DNA of 64,000 nucleotides from an uncultured Lachnospiraceae bacterium (GTDB taxonomy: Bacteria; Bacillota; Clostridia; Lachnospirales; Lachnospiraceae), in assembly GCA_947630925.1 (NCBI GenBank), contig CANRJM010000006.1, positions 62,001 through 126,000 on the forward strand, read 5' to 3'. This document shows, one piece after another, positions 3,681-60,983 of this stretch; positions within the stretch are counted from its first letter, which is position 1, and each line of letters opens with the position of its first letter. Both the position numbers and the translations under genes were made by a program. The notes below the pieces were generated by a model. That model was not told where the DNA came from. It searched no databases and saw only the letters and a list, made by a program, of their open reading frames with translations.

Positions 3681-3865
3681 AAAAATAAGCCTGGGATGTA
3701 CGAGAACCCCTGATATTTTGAACCTACACCAATTGATTGGGATTCCTACATTTTTGCGATAATGTCAAGCCTCCTTAGCAGTGGAAGACAGATTCGCATA
3801 TGCGGTTGCCCACCTAGCATATGCTAGGAGTCAAAATTCAGGAAACGGCATTTTGGGTGTATAGA
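3681..3865 (+). ncRNA. ssrS: 6S RNA (RNA polymerase-binding regulator)
   Basis: No protein is encoded here. The 5' segment CCTGGGATGT (3690-3699) pairs over ten positions, with G-U pairs, with GCATTTTGGG (3848-3857), giving the long closing stem expected of 6S RNA. Inside are the CTGATATTTTGAACCTACA tract typical of clostridial 6S RNAs and a GCGGTTG...CCTAGCATATGCTAGG hairpin near 3803-3832. A promoter lies directly upstream and a terminator directly downstream, so it is an independent transcript of about 180-220 bases. 6S RNA binds sigma-A RNA polymerase by mimicking an open promoter. The identification rests on recognition and hand-folding; a covariance search with RF00013 would settle it. 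Confidence 0.72.
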
Positions 3866-41290: not shown

Positions 41291-41296
41291 ATGACT

Positions 41297-41547
41297 AACA
41301 CGTTGACGAGAAAAGTAGTTACATGCGTGATTTCAGAGAGAGATGGGAAAAAGAGAACTTTTACATGCTGGGACATCTTATCACAATGTAATGAAGACCA
41401 CCTCAGAGTGACTTTAATACAGTCCGGTAGACACCGTTATTGTCAAATGAAGTTGTGGCGCAGCAAGTATTTTTGATAGACGCCAAACAAGGGTGGAACC
41501 GCGGAATTATTTCGTCCCTTCTGATGTATTTCAGAAGGGACTTTTTT
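41297..41547 (+). ncRNA. T-box riboswitch of thrS
   Basis: The leader begins GACGAGAAAAGTAG, then holds the AGAGAG bulge, a distal stem I and the T-box proper AAGGGTGGAACCGCGG (41489-41504). Two overlapping ACC triplets at 41397-41402 sit in the specifier region and match threonine. The terminator is GTCCCTTCTGA (41514-41524) with TCAGAAGGGAC (41531-41541), then six T residues. Uncharged tRNA-Thr stabilises the antiterminator and lets thrS be read. Confidence 0.93.
41514..41547 (+). terminator. Regulated terminator of the thrS T-box
   Basis: 11-bp perfect stem with a T-run; its 5' arm overlaps the region that pairs with the T-box sequence in the antiterminator. Confidence 0.9.
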
Positions 41548-49618: not shown

Positions 49619-50884
49619 ATGTTGAATGGGAAGAAAAAAAATGTTTCTCATCAGGAGGAAAAATATCAGTTTATCAGAGAGCAGATTCGCCCCCAGAGAA
49701 AAAAGAAAATATTGGTTTGGTTAGGCCGTTTTATTATGATAGCTGCGATGGCCTGTATTTTTGGCATGATTGCAGGAACAATCATACTCTATATGCAAAA
49801 GCAGAGTCGGGAGACACAAGAGACGGCGGACGGATCCGATGTTCTTTATTCGGCGTCCCCTATTCCTACGGCTGATCCGGCTCACGTACAGTCTGATGAA
49901 GTTAGGAAAGCTGAAATAAGTTTAAAGAGAATGAACCGCTTATCTGAGAGAATGGCTGCAATCGGAGAGGAAGCCGGTTCCGCTATTGTCAGCGTCGAAG
50001 TCCGTGATAATGTGCAGAATTTTTTAAAGCAGGATATCAAAGACGGCAGAGAATCTGTTTTTGGTATTATTGTCAGAGAAACAAAGAACTATTTTTATAT
50101 TATTACGACTTGTGATATTTTGAAAGGACAGCCATCTGTAAATGTCCGACTGGAACACGATATTTTGATAGAAGCGTCGGTTTTAGGAAACGATCCGCAG
50201 ATTAATCTGGCTGCCATAAGAGTAAAAAAATCAGAAATCAGCCGCTCTGCTCTGTCTAAGCTGACAGTGGCAAAATTTGGAGATGGGCAGGATCTGAAAA
50301 AAGGAACGAATATTGTTGCCATCGGCTGTCCAAATGGTATTTTAAATTCTGTTGTAACCGGGAGCGTTACCAATAATAAAATTTATGCACCGGTTATGGA
50401 CAGTGAGGTGGAGCTGCTTACAACGGATATATTGTATTCTGCGGAAGGAAACGGCGTGGTAATGAATTTGAATTCTGAGATTGTTGGGTTTATCACAACG
50501 GAATTTTTGGAGATGACAGGGACAGCCGGCGTATCTTTCCTGAATATATCCAGCATTTCTGCAATGTTGGATAATCTGCAAAGGACGAATAAAAAATCAT
50601 TTATTGGTTGCGAAGGACGGAGTATCAGCAAAGAAATGGCGGCGTCACATCATATGGCGGCGGGCGCCTATATTACAGATGTTTACTCTGATTATCCGGC
50701 TTATGCCGGCGGAATGCGTATTGCAGATGTTATTACGAAATTTGACGGTCAGCCCATCCATAGGATGTCGGAAATCTATCAAATCATAGCGAGGCATAAA
50801 AAAGGAGATGTTTTGCGCTGCACGGTCTGGCGTAAATCAGGAAGTACGGCAACCACAAAAGAGCTGCAAATCAAGTTGGGCTGA
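49619..50884 (+). CDS. Degenerate HtrA/DegP-like protein (inactive protease fold plus PDZ)
   Basis: A 421-residue protein with GAGG before the ATG. One membrane helix at ~31-58, a low-complexity extracellular linker, then a trypsin-like fold (~115-315) and a PDZ domain (~330-420, YITDVYSDYPAYAGGMRIADVITKFDGQPI). Alignment by hand to HtrA shows the triad lost: YIITTCDIL puts Asp166 for the catalytic His, DPQINLAAI puts Asn196 for the Asp, and SAEGNGVVMNLNSEIVG puts Gly277 for the Ser. It is likely a sensor or scaffold rather than a protease. It is monocistronic and divergent from mutS2. Confidence 0.82.
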   Translation: MLNGKKKNVSHQEEKYQFIREQIRPQRKKKILVWLGRFIMIAAMACIFGMIAGTIILYMQKQSRETQETADGSDVLYSASPIPTADPAHVQSDEVRKAEISLKRMNRLSERMAAIGEEAGSAIVSVEVRDNVQNFLKQDIKDGRESVFGIIVRETKNYFYIITTCDILKGQPSVNVRLEHDILIEASVLGNDPQINLAAIRVKKSEISRSALSKLTVAKFGDGQDLKKGTNIVAIGCPNGILNSVVTGSVTNNKIYAPVMDSEVELLTTDILYSAEGNGVVMNLNSEIVGFITTEFLEMTGTAGVSFLNISSISAMLDNLQRTNKKSFIGCEGRSISKEMAASHHMAAGAYITDVYSDYPAYAGGMRIADVITKFDGQPIHRMSEIYQIIARHKKGDVLRCTVWRKSGSTATTKELQIKLG

Positions 50885-52146: not shown

Positions 52147-52176
52147 TTGAAAGAAATACCGGAAAAGTGATATACT
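52147..52176 (+). promoter_or_regulatory. Promoter of the DUF5717/Hsp70-like operon
   Basis: TTGAAA (52147-52152), 18-base spacer, TATACT (52171-52176), giving a ~45-base leader before the first gene. Confidence 0.6.
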
Positions 52177-52226: not shown

Positions 52227-55200
52227 ATGAGAGAAAAGATAAGTCAGGCTGCAAAAGGCGTATTTGGATATGAGAGCTCCGATTTGCAGATTTCTGTTGC
52301 TGAACTTCAGATTGAAATCAACGCAGGAGAAAGGATACAGGGGAGTATTAGCATTACAAATGAATTATCGCGTTATATGAGAGGGTCGGTCAATACAGAC
52401 TGCCATTTTTTGGAATTTCCGGAAAATATGTTCCAGGGGGTAACGAATGAGGTCTCTTATATTTTCCATGCGGAGACGCTGCAGCCGGGCGAAACGGTAA
52501 GGGGAAACATCTGCATTATTTCTGACTGCGGCACTAAAAAAATTCCGGTAACAGTAACGATCGGCGTACCCTTTTGCGAAGTTTCTACAGGCAAAATCAA
52601 AGATTTATTTCATTTTACAAATTTGGCAAAGGAAAATCCAGACGAGGCTGCAAGCTTATTTCGGAATCCGCATTTTGAGGAAATCTTTTTGTATCGCGAC
52701 AATGCCAATATTGCTCTTTATAGGGGGCTTTCCAGGGGCACCAGTAAGGGAATGGCAATGGAAGAGTTTTTGATTGCCATCCATAAAAGACTGCCAATCC
52801 GGCTGCGTGTTGATAAAAGCGATTTCCGGTATAAAGATTGTGAAAAAAGTTTTACGGATCATTTTGTCATGACAAAGGATAACTGGGGATTTGAGGAATA
52901 TCATATAAAATCGGATAGTAGTTTTGTGGTACCGGAGCATAAAATCGTATGGACGGATGATTTTATGGGAAATACATATTCCGTACCATTTTTAGTGGAT
53001 ACCGATAAGATGGTGCCAGGGGAAAATTATGCAAGGATTACGATTTCTACGGTAAGACAGAAAATAGAAATTACGATAGCAGCAAATAAAGCGGGGGACG
53101 GCCATGAAGCTATGGTTCTGCACCTTCAGAGGCAACGGCAGATATACAGGTTGATGCATTTGTATCTGGAATTTTGTATGGGACATATCTCCAATGAGGA
53201 ATATTTAAGTGAGGCGGGAGAAGTCGTGCTGGAGATGGAAAAGTCCGGCATGACACTGGTCAATCAATTATTCCGGGTGCATCTTGGAATGATGGAACAC
53301 CGTGATACTGTAGTAAAGAGTGGTCTGGCCTTTTTGGAAACCCAAAAAGAGAAACTCAAAACAAAGGGAGGACTGTTATACTGTGCATATTTATATTTGC
53401 GCGGTCTGTGGGCGGATGATGATGAGGTAGCCGCTGCGTGTGTCCGTAAGATTGAGGGATACTATCAAAAAGACCAAAAGAACTGGAAATTACTCTGGTT
53501 TTTATTATATCTGTCGCCAGAGTTTCAGTCAGAAAAAAGGAAGTTGGAAGAGATTGTAAAGATGTTAAATGATTCCTGCCGGAGTCCGATGTTGTATATT
53601 GAAATATGCAGTATCTTAAATGAGTCGCCGGATTTATTGCTGGATTTAAGTTATGGTATTTGTCAGGCGCTTCACTGGGGATGCCGGCAGGAATATTTGG
53701 GGAAAGAGCTTGCGATGCGTTACTGCTATCTGGCAGGCAGGTTGAAACTATTTTCTAAAGTGGTACTGAATGATCTGTGCAGATTATATGAGCAGTACCG
53801 GGAGGAAGAAATTTTGGCGGCTGTCTGCAAAATGCTGATGAAGGGACAGGTAACGGATAAAAAGGCGTTTTATTGGTACAATTTGGGGATAGAACATAAT
53901 TTGAAGCTGACGGATTTATATGAGTACTATATGTATTCGATTGACGGGCATCAGGAAATTACATTACAGGACAGTACACTGCTGTATTTTTTGTATGACA
54001 ATCATTTGACGGTTACCAAGAAGGCGATGTTATATGCCTATATCATACAAAAGAAAGATACATTGGATGAGACGTATGATTCTTATCGTGCGATTATGGA
54101 AGAATTTACGTTATCACAGTTGGAGGCGGGCCGCATGAGTAATGATCTTGCGGTACTCTATGAGGAATTTGTGAAAGAAGAGTGTATCAACGAACGGATT
54201 GCAAGACAACTGCCGGAAGTTATGTTCTGTCACGAAATCTTCTGTGAAAATCCGGATATTATCGGTGTTTATGTGACGCACCGGGAATTGGAAGGAGAGG
54301 AATTTGTACCTTTCGTAAACGGACGCGCGGTAGTACATATCTTTACAGAGCATTATCGGATTTTTTTGGCCGATCAGCTAGATAACCGGTATGTGCAGAG
54401 TGTTCCCTATACTTCCAATAAGATGCTGCACTTGGATCATTTGGCAAAGAGCTGCATGGAGAAGAATGCAGAAGATTATCGTCTGCTTTTATATCTTCAG
54501 GACAGGGCGGAACGGATGAACCAACGAGGCAAAGAAATGATGGATGTCCGGAGGCGGGCGCTGACGATTCCAAACATAAGCCGGTATCATTATAAAAAAA
54601 CCTTTTGTATGTTGGTACGGTATTATTATGATAATTTTGAAGGAGATTATCTGGATGAGGCGCTTGCAAATCTGGACTGGGCTGTCGTAAATCCTTCGGA
54701 TAGGAAACAATTTGTGGAATACTGTATTGTAAGACGTTTCTTTGGCAAAGCAATGGAGGGGATTGAGCAATATGGTTATGAGAAGTTAGAGGGAAAGCAG
54801 CTTTTAAAGGTAGCGTCCCGGTTCTTTGCAGAGAACATGGATCAGGAAAATACAAGTTTGGTCAAATTAGCATGGTTTATTTTTGGGACAGGTCATTTTG
54901 ATGAAAATCTCATGAAATATCTTTGTAAATATTACCTTGGCAGTATTCATGAGATGGTACGGATATGGCGTTATGCAAAAGGTTTTTCCATAGAAATGGA
55001 AGGGTTTGCAGAGCGGATTTTGGGGCAGATTATTTTTACCGAGGAAATGTGCCCGGATGCATATGAGGTATTTTATGAATATTATGAATCCGGCAGGGAC
55101 AAGCTTCTGATTTTGGCGTTTATGAAATTTTTTGCTTATAAATACCTGGTTCATAACTGGATGCTTTCCCAAAAAATGTTTTCTTATTTTTATAAAGAAG

Positions 55201-55778
55201 TACAGTTGCAGGAAAATCCGCTTTGTCTGATTGCAGTGTTAAAGTTTTTAAGCCAGGGGGGAAAACTGACAGAGGAAGAAAAACAGTTTGCTGATTATAA
55301 TATCAGTAAGCTGTATGAAAAGAAAATGATTTTTCCGTTTTACAGGGATTTTTATGGAAAAATATCGCTGCCAATCCATATCTTGGATGAGTATTATGTA
55401 GAATATACCGCCAATCCGGAATACGAAGTCAGAATTCATTATCTGGTTTCTTCCGGATATGAGAAGGACGAATATGTAACGGAGACAATGCGCGATATTT
55501 TTTATGGGATTCGTGTAAAAGAGTTTGTACTTTTTCAGGACGAGGTTTTGCAATATTATATTTCAGAAGTGCGTCCGGAGGGAGAAGTGATCACAAAGAG
55601 CGCTACTGTCAGTTTTGACGAGACGATGGATAATGAAAGGACCAGCAGCCGATACCATATGTTGAATCTGATGATGATTGCCCGGGAGATGAAGGAAGAA
55701 GGGACGCTGATTGATTTGATGAAAGAATATGCACAGATGCAGGAAAATGTCAACCTACTGTTTAAACCGTTGGAGTAG
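52227..55778 (+). CDS. Giant beta-sandwich plus alpha-solenoid protein (DUF5717-like)
   Basis: A 1183-residue cytoplasmic protein, GGGAGG before the ATG at 52227. Residues ~18-130 are a beta-sandwich (LQISVAELQIEINAGERIQG, YIFHAETLQPGETVRGNICI), residues ~220-300 a second beta domain, and ~300-1050 a long run of helices spaced like a solenoid of TPR-type repeats, with a beta-rich C-terminus. There are no catalytic motifs. From memory it matches the family DUF5717, known from Lachnospiraceae. First gene of a four-gene operon; likely a scaffold in a complex with the downstream Hsp70-like protein. No signal peptide. Confidence 0.7.
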   Translation: MREKISQAAKGVFGYESSDLQISVAELQIEINAGERIQGSISITNELSRYMRGSVNTDCHFLEFPENMFQGVTNEVSYIFHAETLQPGETVRGNICIISDCGTKKIPVTVTIGVPFCEVSTGKIKDLFHFTNLAKENPDEAASLFRNPHFEEIFLYRDNANIALYRGLSRGTSKGMAMEEFLIAIHKRLPIRLRVDKSDFRYKDCEKSFTDHFVMTKDNWGFEEYHIKSDSSFVVPEHKIVWTDDFMGNTYSVPFLVDTDKMVPGENYARITISTVRQKIEITIAANKAGDGHEAMVLHLQRQRQIYRLMHLYLEFCMGHISNEEYLSEAGEVVLEMEKSGMTLVNQLFRVHLGMMEHRDTVVKSGLAFLETQKEKLKTKGGLLYCAYLYLRGLWADDDEVAAACVRKIEGYYQKDQKNWKLLWFLLYLSPEFQSEKRKLEEIVKMLNDSCRSPMLYIEICSILNESPDLLLDLSYGICQALHWGCRQEYLGKELAMRYCYLAGRLKLFSKVVLNDLCRLYEQYREEEILAAVCKMLMKGQVTDKKAFYWYNLGIEHNLKLTDLYEYYMYSIDGHQEITLQDSTLLYFLYDNHLTVTKKAMLYAYIIQKKDTLDETYDSYRAIMEEFTLSQLEAGRMSNDLAVLYEEFVKEECINERIARQLPEVMFCHEIFCENPDIIGVYVTHRELEGEEFVPFVNGRAVVHIFTEHYRIFLADQLDNRYVQSVPYTSNKMLHLDHLAKSCMEKNAEDYRLLLYLQDRAERMNQRGKEMMDVRRRALTIPNISRYHYKKTFCMLVRYYYDNFEGDYLDEALANLDWAVVNPSDRKQFVEYCIVRRFFGKAMEGIEQYGYEKLEGKQLLKVASRFFAENMDQENTSLVKLAWFIFGTGHFDENLMKYLCKYYLGSIHEMVRIWRYAKGFSIEMEGFAERILGQIIFTEEMCPDAYEVFYEYYESGRDKLLILAFMKFFAYKYLVHNWMLSQKMFSYFYKEVQLQENPLCLIAVLKFLSQGGKLTEEEKQFADYNISKLYEKKMIFPFYRDFYGKISLPIHILDEYYVEYTANPEYEVRIHYLVSSGYEKDEYVTETMRDIFYGIRVKEFVLFQDEVLQYYISEVRPEGEVITKSATVSFDETMDNERTSSRYHMLNLMMIAREMKEEGTLIDLMKEYAQMQENVNLLFKPLE

Positions 55779-55807
55779 AGACATTACGATAAAAGGAGGC
55801 AGGGAGC

Positions 55808-57091
55808 GTGAAAGAGGACAGAACATTACTGGTTGGAATTGATTTAGGCGCGCGTATTACGCAGATGAGCTGTTTTGACTTTACCACCTTTGAACCGGTT
55901 TCTATTGGACGAAAGATTGGAGATGAGAGGAAACCGGAGATACCTACTGCGCTGAAAGTGGATCCTGTTTCAGGAGAATGGTTTTGGGCTGATGAGGAAT
56001 GTGCGGGAAGGGAAAATCTAATCTGTTTCCCTCATCTTTTGTCAGATGTTATGCGGGAAGAAACGATTGAAATAGGGGAGTATTCCTTTGAAGGATATCA
56101 GGTTTTAAAGCGTTTTTTAGTAAAACTGTTAAGTATTTTGAAGGAATATGAACCGAACCGGACCATAAAAAAGCTGGTCGTTACTTTGGAGACAAGGGAA
56201 AAACGGCTGGTGGAGTATCTGACGAAAATCAGTGAAGAAATCGGAATACCTAAAGGCGGTCTGGTTGTACAGAATCATCGGCAAAGTTATATGTATTATG
56301 CAGTCAGCCAGCCGAGGGAGTTATGGCTGAATAATGTCGGACTGTTTGAATTAGAAGGCGACAGCCTTCTGTATTCGCAAATTAATATAGACCGTAAAAC
56401 GGAGCCATATATTATCGGCGTGACACAGAAGAATTTATCCGAAGATATTCAATGGGAGGCGTTGGCGCAGGAAGACGAACAACAGGCAGCTTATGCATTT
56501 TTAAACGCTGCGAATACCGTGCTTTATAAACAGCTTGTTACAACCATCTATGTTACAGGAAGCGGGTTTGAACGTCCGTGGGCGCATGAGAGTTTAAAAA
56601 AGTTGTGTTCCGGACGGAGAGTGTTCCGCGGACAGAATCTTTTTACAAGAGGAGCCTGCTATGCTGCCCGGGAACTGTCGGGAGAAGGGAAATTAGATCA
56701 TTGTCTTTTCCTGGATGAAGAAATGATCGCGAGCAATGTATCCCTTCGTGTTTACCGTGATGCGGAAATGCAGGAGACCCTGCTTGCCAAGGCGGGCTCT
56801 CTTTGGAATGAAATAGACAGTAGCGTTGATGTGATACCGGATGATGAGAATGAACTGCAGATTACCATTCAGGATGTTTTAAAACATGAAATACGTGTAC
56901 ATATGCTTTCTTTAAGCGGGTTTGCCGGAAGGGAGAATAAGATGACACGTTTTACAATACGTATTCGGTTTGCAGATAAAGACACCTGCATTGTGACGCT
57001 TAAGGACAATGGATTTGGCGAGTTTTGTCCGTCAAGCAACCGAGTGTGGGAACGTTATATCCAGTTGGAGGAAAGTACATGGGAAAATTAA
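55808..57091 (+). CDS. Degenerate Hsp70/actin-fold protein (DUF5716-like)
   Basis: A 427-residue protein. GTG start with AAAGGAGG eight bases before. The ATPase-core landmarks align with Hsp70: phosphate-1 LLVGIDLGARITQM (7-20), connect-1-like NHRQSYMYYA (~156-165), phosphate-2 position GLFELEGDSLLYS (~178-190), and adenosine motif IYVTGSGFERPW (247-258) followed by GQNLFTRGACYAA. At phosphate-2 the usual D-x-G-G-G-T is E-L-E-G-D-S, so hydrolysis is doubtful. The final ~130 residues are beta-rich. From memory the family is DUF5716. It may be a nucleotide-binding switch. Confidence 0.7.
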   Translation: MKEDRTLLVGIDLGARITQMSCFDFTTFEPVSIGRKIGDERKPEIPTALKVDPVSGEWFWADEECAGRENLICFPHLLSDVMREETIEIGEYSFEGYQVLKRFLVKLLSILKEYEPNRTIKKLVVTLETREKRLVEYLTKISEEIGIPKGGLVVQNHRQSYMYYAVSQPRELWLNNVGLFELEGDSLLYSQINIDRKTEPYIIGVTQKNLSEDIQWEALAQEDEQQAAYAFLNAANTVLYKQLVTTIYVTGSGFERPWAHESLKKLCSGRRVFRGQNLFTRGACYAARELSGEGKLDHCLFLDEEMIASNVSLRVYRDAEMQETLLAKAGSLWNEIDSSVDVIPDDENELQITIQDVLKHEIRVHMLSLSGFAGRENKMTRFTIRIRFADKDTCIVTLKDNGFGEFCPSSNRVWERYIQLEESTWEN

Positions 57092-57918
57092 TACAGTGTG
57101 CCGGCCGTGTTGCGAAAGTACCGTATCATTTCCGGCTGACAAAAACAAATGTATATTCAATCGAAGAAGTCTGTTATTATATCAGGCATAATATTTACAT
57201 GATGCAGGAAGAGATTTTTGACAGAAACTTTGTAATGTGGGTGCGCAGTGAACTGCATATGGAGGAAACAGCAGATAAGCTGGAACGGCTGATACAGGAG
57301 CAGCATGATATCCGGGATATCGTAGTGACTATTTGCTGTAGCTGCGATTACTATGAAGAGGAAGAAATTAAAGAATTAGTTCATATTATGGAAAAAATGG
57401 ATCATCTTCCCATGTATGAACGTAAAAAACGAAAGGGGGATCATTACCTGTGCTGCCAATCATACGAAAAGGCGATTGAGGAATACGAAAAGATTTTTGA
57501 GAGTGATGAGATATTACAGGCGGAGGCAGTTACATATGGCGCTCTCTTTCATAATATGGGAGTCGCTTATGTTAATATTGGAGAGTTCCATAAGGCGTCA
57601 GAACTTTTTTTAAAGGCGTATGAGAAAAATAACCGTGAAGAATCGCTGGCGCAATGTCTGTATGCGCTTCGTCTGTGTAAAGATGTAAAATCCTTTAAAA
57701 AGCTAATCGGCGATTTGGAAATTTCCAACGAAAGGCAGGGAGCATGGGAGAAAGAATATCAGCATGCTTTGAAAATCAGCGCTGCGCAGAGAACAGTGCA
57801 GCAGATTGAACGGCTTAGGGATTTAATACAAAAGGGCAACGTAGAGGAATATTATAATAAGGTACAGCGTTTTATTATGGATTGGAAAGAGGAATATCGA
57901 AGGCAGATTAGCGTATAG
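57079..57918 (+). CDS. TPR-containing protein of the Hsp70-like operon
   Basis: A 279-residue protein. The ATG at 57079 has GGAGG in the end of the previous gene, which it overlaps by 13 bases. Residues 1-~110 are an unrecognised helical domain (KVPYHFRLTKTNVYSIEEVC...). Residues ~125-200 are TPR units (EKAIEEYEKIFESDE and HNMGVAYVNIGEFHKASELFLKAYEKNN), followed by a long charged helix. TPRs bind peptides or other proteins, often Hsp70 tails. Unknown partner; co-translated with the Hsp70-like gene. Confidence 0.75.
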   Translation: MGKLIQCAGRVAKVPYHFRLTKTNVYSIEEVCYYIRHNIYMMQEEIFDRNFVMWVRSELHMEETADKLERLIQEQHDIRDIVVTICCSCDYYEEEEIKELVHIMEKMDHLPMYERKKRKGDHYLCCQSYEKAIEEYEKIFESDEILQAEAVTYGALFHNMGVAYVNIGEFHKASELFLKAYEKNNREESLAQCLYALRLCKDVKSFKKLIGDLEISNERQGAWEKEYQHALKISAAQRTVQQIERLRDLIQKGNVEEYYNKVQRFIMDWKEEYRRQISV

Positions 57919-57936
57919 CATATTGGAGGAAAAAGT

Positions 57937-59202
57937 ATGGCTTTTTGGAGCGGAAAGAAGAAAAAGCAGCAGGAAGAAGAGGAACTTAGGAAAGACGCGG
58001 AGAAAACATTTGGGAAAATCCGTAAACAAAAGTTGGCTCTGCAGAAAAAGAAGCAGGAACAGGCGCAGCAGAAGGAGACAGAGGAAAACAGCAATCCGTT
58101 GGAAAAATACCGGACAGAGATTGTGAAACCGGTGTATAAAAACGATCAAAAACGCTATGTTACCGAATGCTGTCAGGCAATCGGGGAGGCAGATCTGCAG
58201 ATAGAGAAGATACGCGGGGAATATCAGAAGGTTACAGACCACCTGTTGGATATCCAAAAAATGGAACGGATGGAGAAAGAAGACCATAAGGCGCTTTTAG
58301 AGTCTGCTAAAAATATTGTAAAACTGACAAAGGAACGCAGCCAATATAAAGAACGTCATCTTTCGATATCAGATAGCGTGATTCGCAGGTTTGAACTTTA
58401 TGATGAAGAACTTGTAGATGCGATTAAAAAAATGTATGCATCTGAGGAATATCAGAAAGCAATTGACGGAGATATGGAAAAGCTGCGGGAGGAAAAGAAA
58501 AAGCTTCGTCAGGAAAAAAAAGAGATCGTAGAGAAGCAGAATGCATTAAAAAGTATTGCGAAAGTATTTGTTTTTTTGGTTTTTTCTCTGTTTGTCCTTT
58601 TTTTGGTGATATACTATATTATGGGAATTGATATGACATATCCGTATTTGGGGACGATTTTGTTTGCTGCCGTTGTATCGACGCTGCTTTTTGTGGAATC
58701 CAACCGTAACCGCCGCGATATGATTATTGCCGAACGTAAGACAGATAAGGCGGTCAGCCTTCTGAATCAGGTTAAGATTAAATGCGTCAACAACCTGAAT
58801 CTGCTGGATTATAACAAGGAAAAATTTGGCGTTAAGGACGCCGCCGATTTTGAACATCTCTGGAACGAATATTGCAAGGCAAAGGAATATGAAAGAAAGT
58901 TTCGTGAAAATACAGAACAGCTAGATTATTATACCAATGAATTGCTGACCATCCTAAAGGAACATGGAATCCAGGATCGTGAAATCTGGGTTGGTCAGGC
59001 GCCGGCTATCGTTGACAGCAGAGAAATGGTAGAAATCCGTCATGAATTAAATACACAACGGCAGAAGTTAAGGGATCAGATTGCATACAACGAAGATATG
59101 AAACGGGAATTTGTGCATGGCATTGATGAACTGATACGGGAAAATCCGGAGAACAAACAGGAGTTATTGGATATTGTGGAGAAATTTAGTGTTAGCAATT
59201 AG
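57937..59202 (+). CDS. Membrane-anchored coiled-coil protein of the Hsp70-like operon
   Basis: A 421-residue protein starting MAFWSGKKKKQQEEEE. A highly charged N-terminal segment and coiled coils (~15-205) lead to two closely spaced membrane helices (~207-228 and ~235-252, MGIDMTYPYLG between), then more coiled coil (~265-420). Both long arms would face the cytoplasm. There are no catalytic motifs. Eighteen bases after the TPR gene and last of the operon. It could dock the complex to the membrane. Confidence 0.75.
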   Translation: MAFWSGKKKKQQEEEELRKDAEKTFGKIRKQKLALQKKKQEQAQQKETEENSNPLEKYRTEIVKPVYKNDQKRYVTECCQAIGEADLQIEKIRGEYQKVTDHLLDIQKMERMEKEDHKALLESAKNIVKLTKERSQYKERHLSISDSVIRRFELYDEELVDAIKKMYASEEYQKAIDGDMEKLREEKKKLRQEKKEIVEKQNALKSIAKVFVFLVFSLFVLFLVIYYIMGIDMTYPYLGTILFAAVVSTLLFVESNRNRRDMIIAERKTDKAVSLLNQVKIKCVNNLNLLDYNKEKFGVKDAADFEHLWNEYCKAKEYERKFRENTEQLDYYTNELLTILKEHGIQDREIWVGQAPAIVDSREMVEIRHELNTQRQKLRDQIAYNEDMKREFVHGIDELIRENPENKQELLDIVEKFSVSN

Positions 59203-59212
59203 AAAATAAATG

Positions 59213-59244
59213 TTGACAGGGTAACTTTTTTGTGCTAGTATAAT
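59213..59244 (+). promoter_or_regulatory. Candidate promoter of the infC operon
   Basis: TTGACA (59213-59218) and TATAAT (59239-59244) are both consensus, but 20 bases lie between them, longer than the usual 16-18. An activator or an alternative -35 may be involved. Confidence 0.5.
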
Positions 59245-60707: not shown

Positions 60708-60983
60708 TGAATGTAAATTCATGGAAGAGGAGGAGTACAGGGAAAGCCCTTGCAGAGAGAGCGGTCCGTTGGCTGGGAGACCGTTTAGACGTGTATTTTC
60801 CTGGAAGGTAGCCTTGGAGAAGCGTTTCTGAACATTGCAGTAGGAAATGCCGGTTCGTCCCGTTATAGACGAAAGAGATAGTCTATGGAGACAGGGATGC
60901 GTATTTTCCCATGGATGACATAGATAAAACAAAGGTGGTACCGCGTAGATGATTCGCCCTTTGCCGATTGGCAGAGGGTTTTT
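60708..60983 (+). ncRNA. T-box riboswitch of valS
   Basis: The 460-base stretch before valS has no gene. It contains the T-box sequence AAGGTGGTACCGCG (60932-60945), a stem I with GAGGAGTACAG, AGAGAGAG and the GAAGGTAGCC specifier block, where GTA (60808-60810) would read as valine. The terminator is CCCTTTGCC (60957-60965) with GGCAGAGGG (60970-60978), then five T residues. The terminator/antiterminator switch is controlled by uncharged tRNA-Val. Confidence 0.92.

Follow-up and report, generated by a model that had tools for sequence, protein, structure and literature searches.

Genes and signals of the operon

We analysed a stretch of 64,000 nucleotides (hereafter the window) from an uncultured Lachnospiraceae bacterium (GenBank assembly GCA_947630925.1, contig CANRJM010000006.1, positions 62,001 to 126,000 of the forward strand). 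Our subject is a run of four genes in this window that an initial annotation, made from the sequence alone, had described as an operon combining a degenerate Hsp70-like protein with scaffold, tetratricopeptide repeat (TPR) and membrane coiled-coil proteins. We call these genes A (DUF5717), B (DUF5716), C (TPR) and D (membrane coiled coil). Their positions, and that of a candidate promoter, are given below (aa, amino acids; ORF, open reading frame).

52147-52176, + strand: candidate operon promoter, TTGAAA, 18 nt, TATACT (consensus match only)
52227-55778, + strand: gene A, 1183 aa, ATG start, Shine-Dalgarno sequence present (ORF list)
55808-57091, + strand: gene B, 427 aa, GTG start preceded by aaaggagg
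57079-57918, + strand: gene C, 279 aa, ATG start preceded by ttggagg
57937-59202, + strand: gene D, 421 aa, ATG start preceded by attggagg

ORF analysis returned the same four frames with the same intergenic distances of 29, -13 and 18 bases; a TTG codon 36 bases upstream is an alternative start for gene A and would give a product of 1195 aa. The sigma-70-like site upstream of A has 10 of 12 consensus matches and a TG before the second hexamer, and a scan of the region as a whole gave 29 sites against a shuffle mean of 27.7, which is no excess over chance. The genes infC, rplT and valS follow 3' of D, valS lying behind a T-box leader, and infC has its own promoter-like site at 59213-59241, after D. 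Because one promoter-like site precedes A and infC has its own after D, genes A-D look like one transcription unit, as the initial annotation had claimed.

The product of gene A matches the Pfam families PF18984 (E 2.6e-290, 965.7 bits) and PF18983 (E 6.6e-88, 295.3 bits), and its domains are DUF5717_N and DUF5717; that of gene B matches PF18980, DUF5716_C (E 7.6e-102, 340.7 bits). All three scores exceed the gathering score. The assignment of C as a TPR protein is supported, since TPR matches are below the cut-offs in the window protein and clear in its orthologues. D has no Pfam family match; its hydrophobic segments at residues 207-225 and 235-253 agree with the two membrane helices noted before, and the protein is predicted to be a coiled coil with a two-helix membrane hairpin. 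TPR matches in A were obtained for one distant orthologue only (locus L067), and on these matches A would be a scaffold with a probable TPR-like solenoid. Neither A, B nor D has a confident match to any named system in Pfam, NCBIfam or PADLOC, so that this statement of the initial annotation holds for these three proteins, and a sequence search of the PDB with the A and B profiles gave no match. A search of the open-access literature gave one unrelated paper and no description of the DUF5716 and DUF5717 families, in agreement with the earlier remark that they have no assigned function.

A larger Hsp70 operon in other families of the order

Gene neighbourhoods were read at 40 loci taken from the 88 other B-positive genomes of the order Lachnospirales. 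The sample covers 20 of the 21 such genomes of Lachnospiraceae and 20 of the 67 of other families, the latter mostly picked by score. Genes were called as the longest non-overlapping ORFs, a procedure in which opposite-strand frames can mask genes. The loci are of two types: a reduced-type set of 21 (20 from Lachnospiraceae plus one from genome G167 of another family) and a full-operon set of 19.

The gene order in the full operons is A, Hsp70a, a coiled-coil protein with a GrpE domain, B, Hsp70b, Hsp70c with a VWA domain, and C. Among the 19 loci, the C-terminal part of A (A_C) was found in 17, Hsp70a in 17, the GrpE coiled coil in 18, B in 19, Hsp70b in 19, Hsp70-VWA in 17, C in 15 and an adjacent D in 3; several of the absences reflect contig ends or, in family f19, inserted genes. 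In at least 10 of the 19 loci, A is split into A_N (~400 aa) and A_C (~900 aa), while it is a single ORF in L065 and L070. A presumed split A_N in L051 was dropped, the ORF concerned being metK. The C orthologues of full operons mostly measure 381-413 aa. The three Hsp70s (a, b and c) keep the motifs that B has lost (see below), and the VWA part of Hsp70c conserves DTTGSM and TDAPPH in eight aligned rows. Among 245 genomes outside the order, 9 weak matches (45-67 bits) to the VWA profile were obtained.

Genome-wide counts agree with these neighbourhoods. At least two GrpE-domain matches were present in 10/10 full-operon genomes, and one match over the cut-off in 10/10 Lachnospiraceae and 6/6 other genomes. 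Hsp70 match segments numbered 8-11 in eight full-operon genomes, 3-7 in ten Lachnospiraceae and 2-4 in six others. The window operon is of the reduced form, which lacks the three Hsp70s and the GrpE protein. The initial annotation had proposed an undescribed system; no published description was found, and what it had missed is the larger operon with its three motif-keeping Hsp70s, GrpE and VWA domains. Searches of the open-access literature for an operon combining Hsp70, GrpE, VWA and TPR proteins yielded a single related paper (eLife 2020, PMC7159879), those for Hsp70 with GrpE in Lachnospirales yielded nothing, and those on Myxococcus chaperones and on Lachnospiraceae core or essential genes yielded nothing on A-D. 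The full multi-Hsp70 machine is apparently undescribed.

Two side observations concern the full operons. At the f19 loci L056, L057 and L058, unrelated ORFs on the same strand are inserted in the operon; several of them have lipoprotein-like starts by eye, and the Hsp70 genes that were read there are unbroken. Genome G172 (family f5, 7.7 Mb) has four GrpE-domain matches in addition to the normal grpE, five in all, which suggests that the machine or its exchange factor is present in additional copies.

Gene B encodes a degenerate Hsp70

B is assigned as Hsp70-like both by profile and by structure model, which confirms the previous description of a degenerate protein of Hsp70/actin fold. Window B consists of an actin-like nucleotide-binding fold followed by a beta-type substrate-binding domain (SBD-beta), and it has no alpha lid. 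The structure alignments comprised 53 A and 62 B relatives, out of 69 A and 74 B full-length proteins. The Pfam Hsp70 model (PF00012), which represents the DnaK family, gave no match to window B; B differs from that family in having no canonical phosphate loops, no subdomain IIB and no alpha lid. The loop motifs TTNS or GGGT occur in 0 of 40 B rows. Window B reads GIDLGARIT and LFELEGDSLL, whereas the canonical sequences are GIDLGTTNS and DFGGGTLD, and some B proteins of full operons retain parts of the loops (for example, GIDMGTKST and VDYGGEEIR). Subdomain IIB, the GrpE contact, is deleted in 21/21 reduced-type B proteins and retained in 19/19 B proteins of full operons; it measures 15 residues in window B versus 77 in the Hsp70b of L067.

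The initial annotation had taken B for the nucleotide-responsive core of a four-part, membrane-docked machine that includes D. B retains the actin-like fold but has neither the canonical phosphate loops nor subdomain IIB, and because of these two losses a nucleotide-responsive core is unlikely. A different way of supplying an ATP cycle would be a borrowed motor: B could pair with the housekeeping DnaK, as Hsp110/Sse1 does with Hsp70, and so bring DnaK, DnaJ and GrpE to the A/C scaffold. Hsp110 works ATP-bound, whereas B is without either canonical phosphate loop and without subdomain IIB. The Hsp110 matches of B are tied with those to DnaK and Ssz1 and do not discriminate. We consider a borrowed motor unlikely, and rate the holding of a client without ATP above it because the features on which a partner of the Hsp110 type would rely are gone from B.

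Distribution, co-conservation and selection

The A profile matches 147 of 150 Lachnospiraceae genomes (150 genera, one genome each), mostly with one match apiece, and 124 of the 126 better assemblies; the three misses overall include one genome that is 98% complete. Gene A therefore belongs to the core genome of the family and not to a mobile island. In a sample of 196 genomes of the order, A is present in 93, B in 89, both in 88 and neither in 102, so that A and B occur together in 88 of the 94 genomes with either; all 22 Lachnospiraceae of this sample carry both. In a class sample, the A C-terminal profile matched 13 of 341 genomes, and in a phylum sample the B profile matched 4 of 299, all of them in Lachnospiraceae; neither A (341 class genomes) nor B (299 phylum genomes) was found outside the order with these profiles.

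This distribution bears on a possible role as a sporulation or spore-structure component. The window genome does have SpoIVA, yet 11 of the 22 Lachnospiraceae with A and B have no SpoIVA match, the match in G083 (E 5.0e-4), one of the other 11, falls far short of the cut-off, and several SpoIVA-positive families (e.g. f2, f13, f17 and f21) have no A or B match. The co-occurrence data thus disfavour a sporulation role, which we regard as very improbable.

Genes A, B and C stand in order in 20 of the 21 reduced-type loci, and D is present in 16 of the 21. The exception, L045, has an opposite-strand frame called over B, and B is present there by profile. We also surveyed named loci, namely the best 80 of 270 matches, most of them titled as Lachnospiraceae or Acetatifactor and a few as metagenome-assembled genomes of other taxa. 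B was uncalled in 5 of the 80 (masked by an opposite frame, or from an unchecked cause), and these were excluded from the adjacency count. Of the 75 loci with B called, 55 have A-B-C-D and 13 have A-B-C without D; the other 7 comprise four contig-end cuts, two loci in which C is masked (L095 and L142, counted as lacking C) and one with neither C nor D called. The neighbourhood analysis in Lachnospiraceae thus bears out the co-conservation of A, B and C and does not extend it to D, which is missing from 5 of the 21 reduced-type loci. As a separate observation, L047 is a reduced operon of Lachnospiraceae type in a genome (G167) classed to family f8, whose other sampled members have no A match; it is possibly a contamination (5% by table) or a transfer.

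A tree of 46 sequences unites the reduced-type B proteins in a single group (100/100), with the full-operon B of L052 as its sister (100/99), and Hsp70b falls on the opposite side. With Hsp70b as outgroup, the simpler account is a loss in the lineage of Lachnospiraceae. The direction of loss is inferred from the B tree together with gene content, and descent by reduction from a larger Hsp70 machine appears highly likely.

For the operon genes, dN ranged from 0.095 to 0.27, and dS reached saturation in 14 of the 20 gene comparisons; the remaining 6 gave dS values of 1.4-3.0, themselves near saturation, and dN/dS ratios of 0.045-0.091. Purifying selection on the operon is supported. The loss of motifs and of a subdomain, together with the fast divergence of B, might also be expected of a functionless, decaying remnant, but A is found in 147/150 genera, dN/dS is low wherever dS could be computed, and the A-B-C order is kept in 20/21 reduced-type loci and in 69 of the 75 named loci with B called. 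We therefore give hardly any credence to decay.

Gene D is linked to valS at other loci

A D profile matched 16 of 22 genomes: 10/10 with a full operon, 3/7 Lachnospiraceae and 3/5 without A and B, the four D-negative Lachnospiraceae having been chosen since their locus lacks D. In 7 of 10 further loci (L174, L176, L177, L178, L181, L182 and L183), D is the gene that precedes the tRNA synthetase gene valS, in the same orientation and 103-893 bases away, with an 89-aa frame in between in L183; the identity of valS was confirmed in 3 of the 7, and two of the genomes have no A or B. The arrangement C-D-valS is seen in L052, L063 and L070. D therefore looks like an older neighbour of valS that has remained beside A-C at most of the Lachnospiraceae loci examined.

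These results also bear on the four-part machine with B as nucleotide-responsive core. Of the 75 named loci with B called, 55 have the four genes side by side, but D is missing from 5/21 reduced-type loci and present in 3/5 tested genomes that have neither A nor B, and in two such genomes it is linked to valS. The dedicated membrane dock proposed earlier is not supported; D would be an accessory for which a dock role is possible and not needed. With 0/40 canonical phosphate loops in B in addition, we judge the four-part machine improbable.

Comparison with known systems

A close published parallel is the description of GAP1-N2 and MoxR-vWA ternary systems (PMC7159879). GAP1-N2 systems share with our operons the combination of HSP70, GrpE, an HSP70-domain-only protein and TPR, and the paper also describes vWA proteins; it is these parallel parts that speak for a conflict or defence system akin to the GAP1-N2 HSP70/GrpE theme or to the MoxR-vWA systems. 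The full operon differs in being without GAP1 and GTPase and in having three Hsp70s plus B, and A belongs to the core genome of a family. A GAP1-N2 domain protein was absent from the window genome and 10 of 11 other genomes tested, the match in G088 lying on another contig. Among the operon proteins of the window, of L070 and of L067, Pfam scans detected neither a GTPase nor an AAA+ domain; VWA occurs solely fused to Hsp70c in the full operons scanned, unlike in MoxR-vWA systems. As for the FNIII protein fused to DnaJ or TPR in GAP1-N2 systems, A is DUF5717, with TPR matches only in the one distant orthologue. Membership of the GAP1-N2 class was rejected on the result for these 12 genomes. No window protein matched PADLOC, and L070 gave only weak PDC-M61B matches, in 2 of 8 proteins, both Hsp70s, on which grounds a listed defence system was rejected. 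Moreover, A is in nearly every genus of the family, mostly as one match, unlike defence islands. A conflict system is, in our estimation, about as improbable as the four-part machine.

Among chaperones, Hsp70a, b and c of the L067 operon match DnaK models far below the NCBI cut-offs. No J-domain-like ORF was found beside the operon in the 40 loci by a motif search, the rest of the genomes not having been searched. Ssz1, of the yeast ribosome-associated complex, may be an analogue of B, as an atypical Hsp70 that serves as a complex subunit; however, its structure 4gni is titled as bound to ATP and magnesium, unlike what we propose for B, and its partner Zuo1 is a ribosomal J-protein, while nothing here connects A-C to ribosomes. 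The atypical Hsp70s of Myxococcus (StkA, SglK and CsdK1/2 with GrpS) have specialised duties of their own (PMC4319316, PMC10313047). Compared by description only, they likewise represent specialised bacterial Hsp70s, and the portions of these accounts drawn on here report no A, B or VWA-Hsp70 architecture.

Other features of the window and neighbouring genes

A protein resembling HtrA/DegP (49619-50884, + strand) apparently lacks its catalytic residues: by eye, it has SAEGNGVV in place of the expected GNSGG and TTCDIL at the expected position of the histidine motif. It is possibly a pseudo-protease. The RNA features of the window are the following.

3685-3863: 6S RNA
41294-41522: T-box leader
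60713-60964: T-box leader, directly before valS

Neighbouring genes gave no functional hint. Among the most frequent downstream genes at the Lachnospiraceae loci are purF, purB and purC, of which representatives were checked, and a purA-like cluster (by eye); ABC-transporter-like genes lie upstream (by eye), and elsewhere valS or infC adjoin.

Proposed role

We propose an order-specific Hsp70 machine of which A, B and C survive as a scaffold that is still under selection, and put the probability of this proposal as a whole at roughly 0.55. In the full machine, the solenoid of A and the TPR protein C would gather clients, on which the three motif-intact Hsp70s, one with VWA, would run their ATP cycles; the coiled coil with a GrpE-like end would exchange the nucleotide of these Hsp70s, and B would serve as a subunit with a structural or regulatory role. 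Lachnospiraceae would have lost both the motors and the exchange factor, and their B the subdomain that GrpE grips. The remaining complex would hold a client or partner through the substrate-binding half of B and the repeats of A and C, with no ATP cycle of its own, and D, where present, would keep it near the membrane. Descent from an Hsp70 machine whose motors are gone is the firm part of this proposal and the present mechanism its weak part; client holding without an ATP motor of its own, in the manner of Ssz1, is a tentative suggestion.

Several points weigh against the proposal. We found no experiment or co-purification on the A-D proteins in the open-access literature, and co-conservation with operon order falls short of proving one complex. 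Extra Hsp70 genes lie elsewhere in some Lachnospiraceae genomes (G028, G052 and G118). The loss of ATP motifs may leave room for other nucleotide binding by B. Within the family, B proteins share 23-29% identity with window B; given this fast divergence, a working substrate groove is putative at the level of single residues. D is missing from some genomes with A, B and C and is not tied to them. Finally, the tree has long branches (L050, L070 and L051) and its rooting depends on the Hsp70b paralogue, and the computable dS values are close to saturation.

The broader picture, to which we give slightly less than even odds, is that a dedicated Lachnospirales machine of three ATP-driven Hsp70s (one with VWA), a pseudo-Hsp70, a GrpE-domain exchange factor of its own, a solenoid and a TPR scaffold lost all its motors in Lachnospiraceae, where the pseudo-Hsp70 and the scaffolds became an ATP-free complex with a core housekeeping role. 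If true, a chaperone machine would have been turned into a structural device. Lachnospiraceae are among the commonest human gut bacteria, and A is found in nearly all of their sampled genera, yet the families carry no function. The link to an Hsp70/GrpE/VWA operon makes two anonymous DUF families a testable chaperone question, and the joint loss of GrpE and of the subdomain that it grips would be an experiment of nature that tells which Hsp70 parts remain necessary without an ATP cycle.
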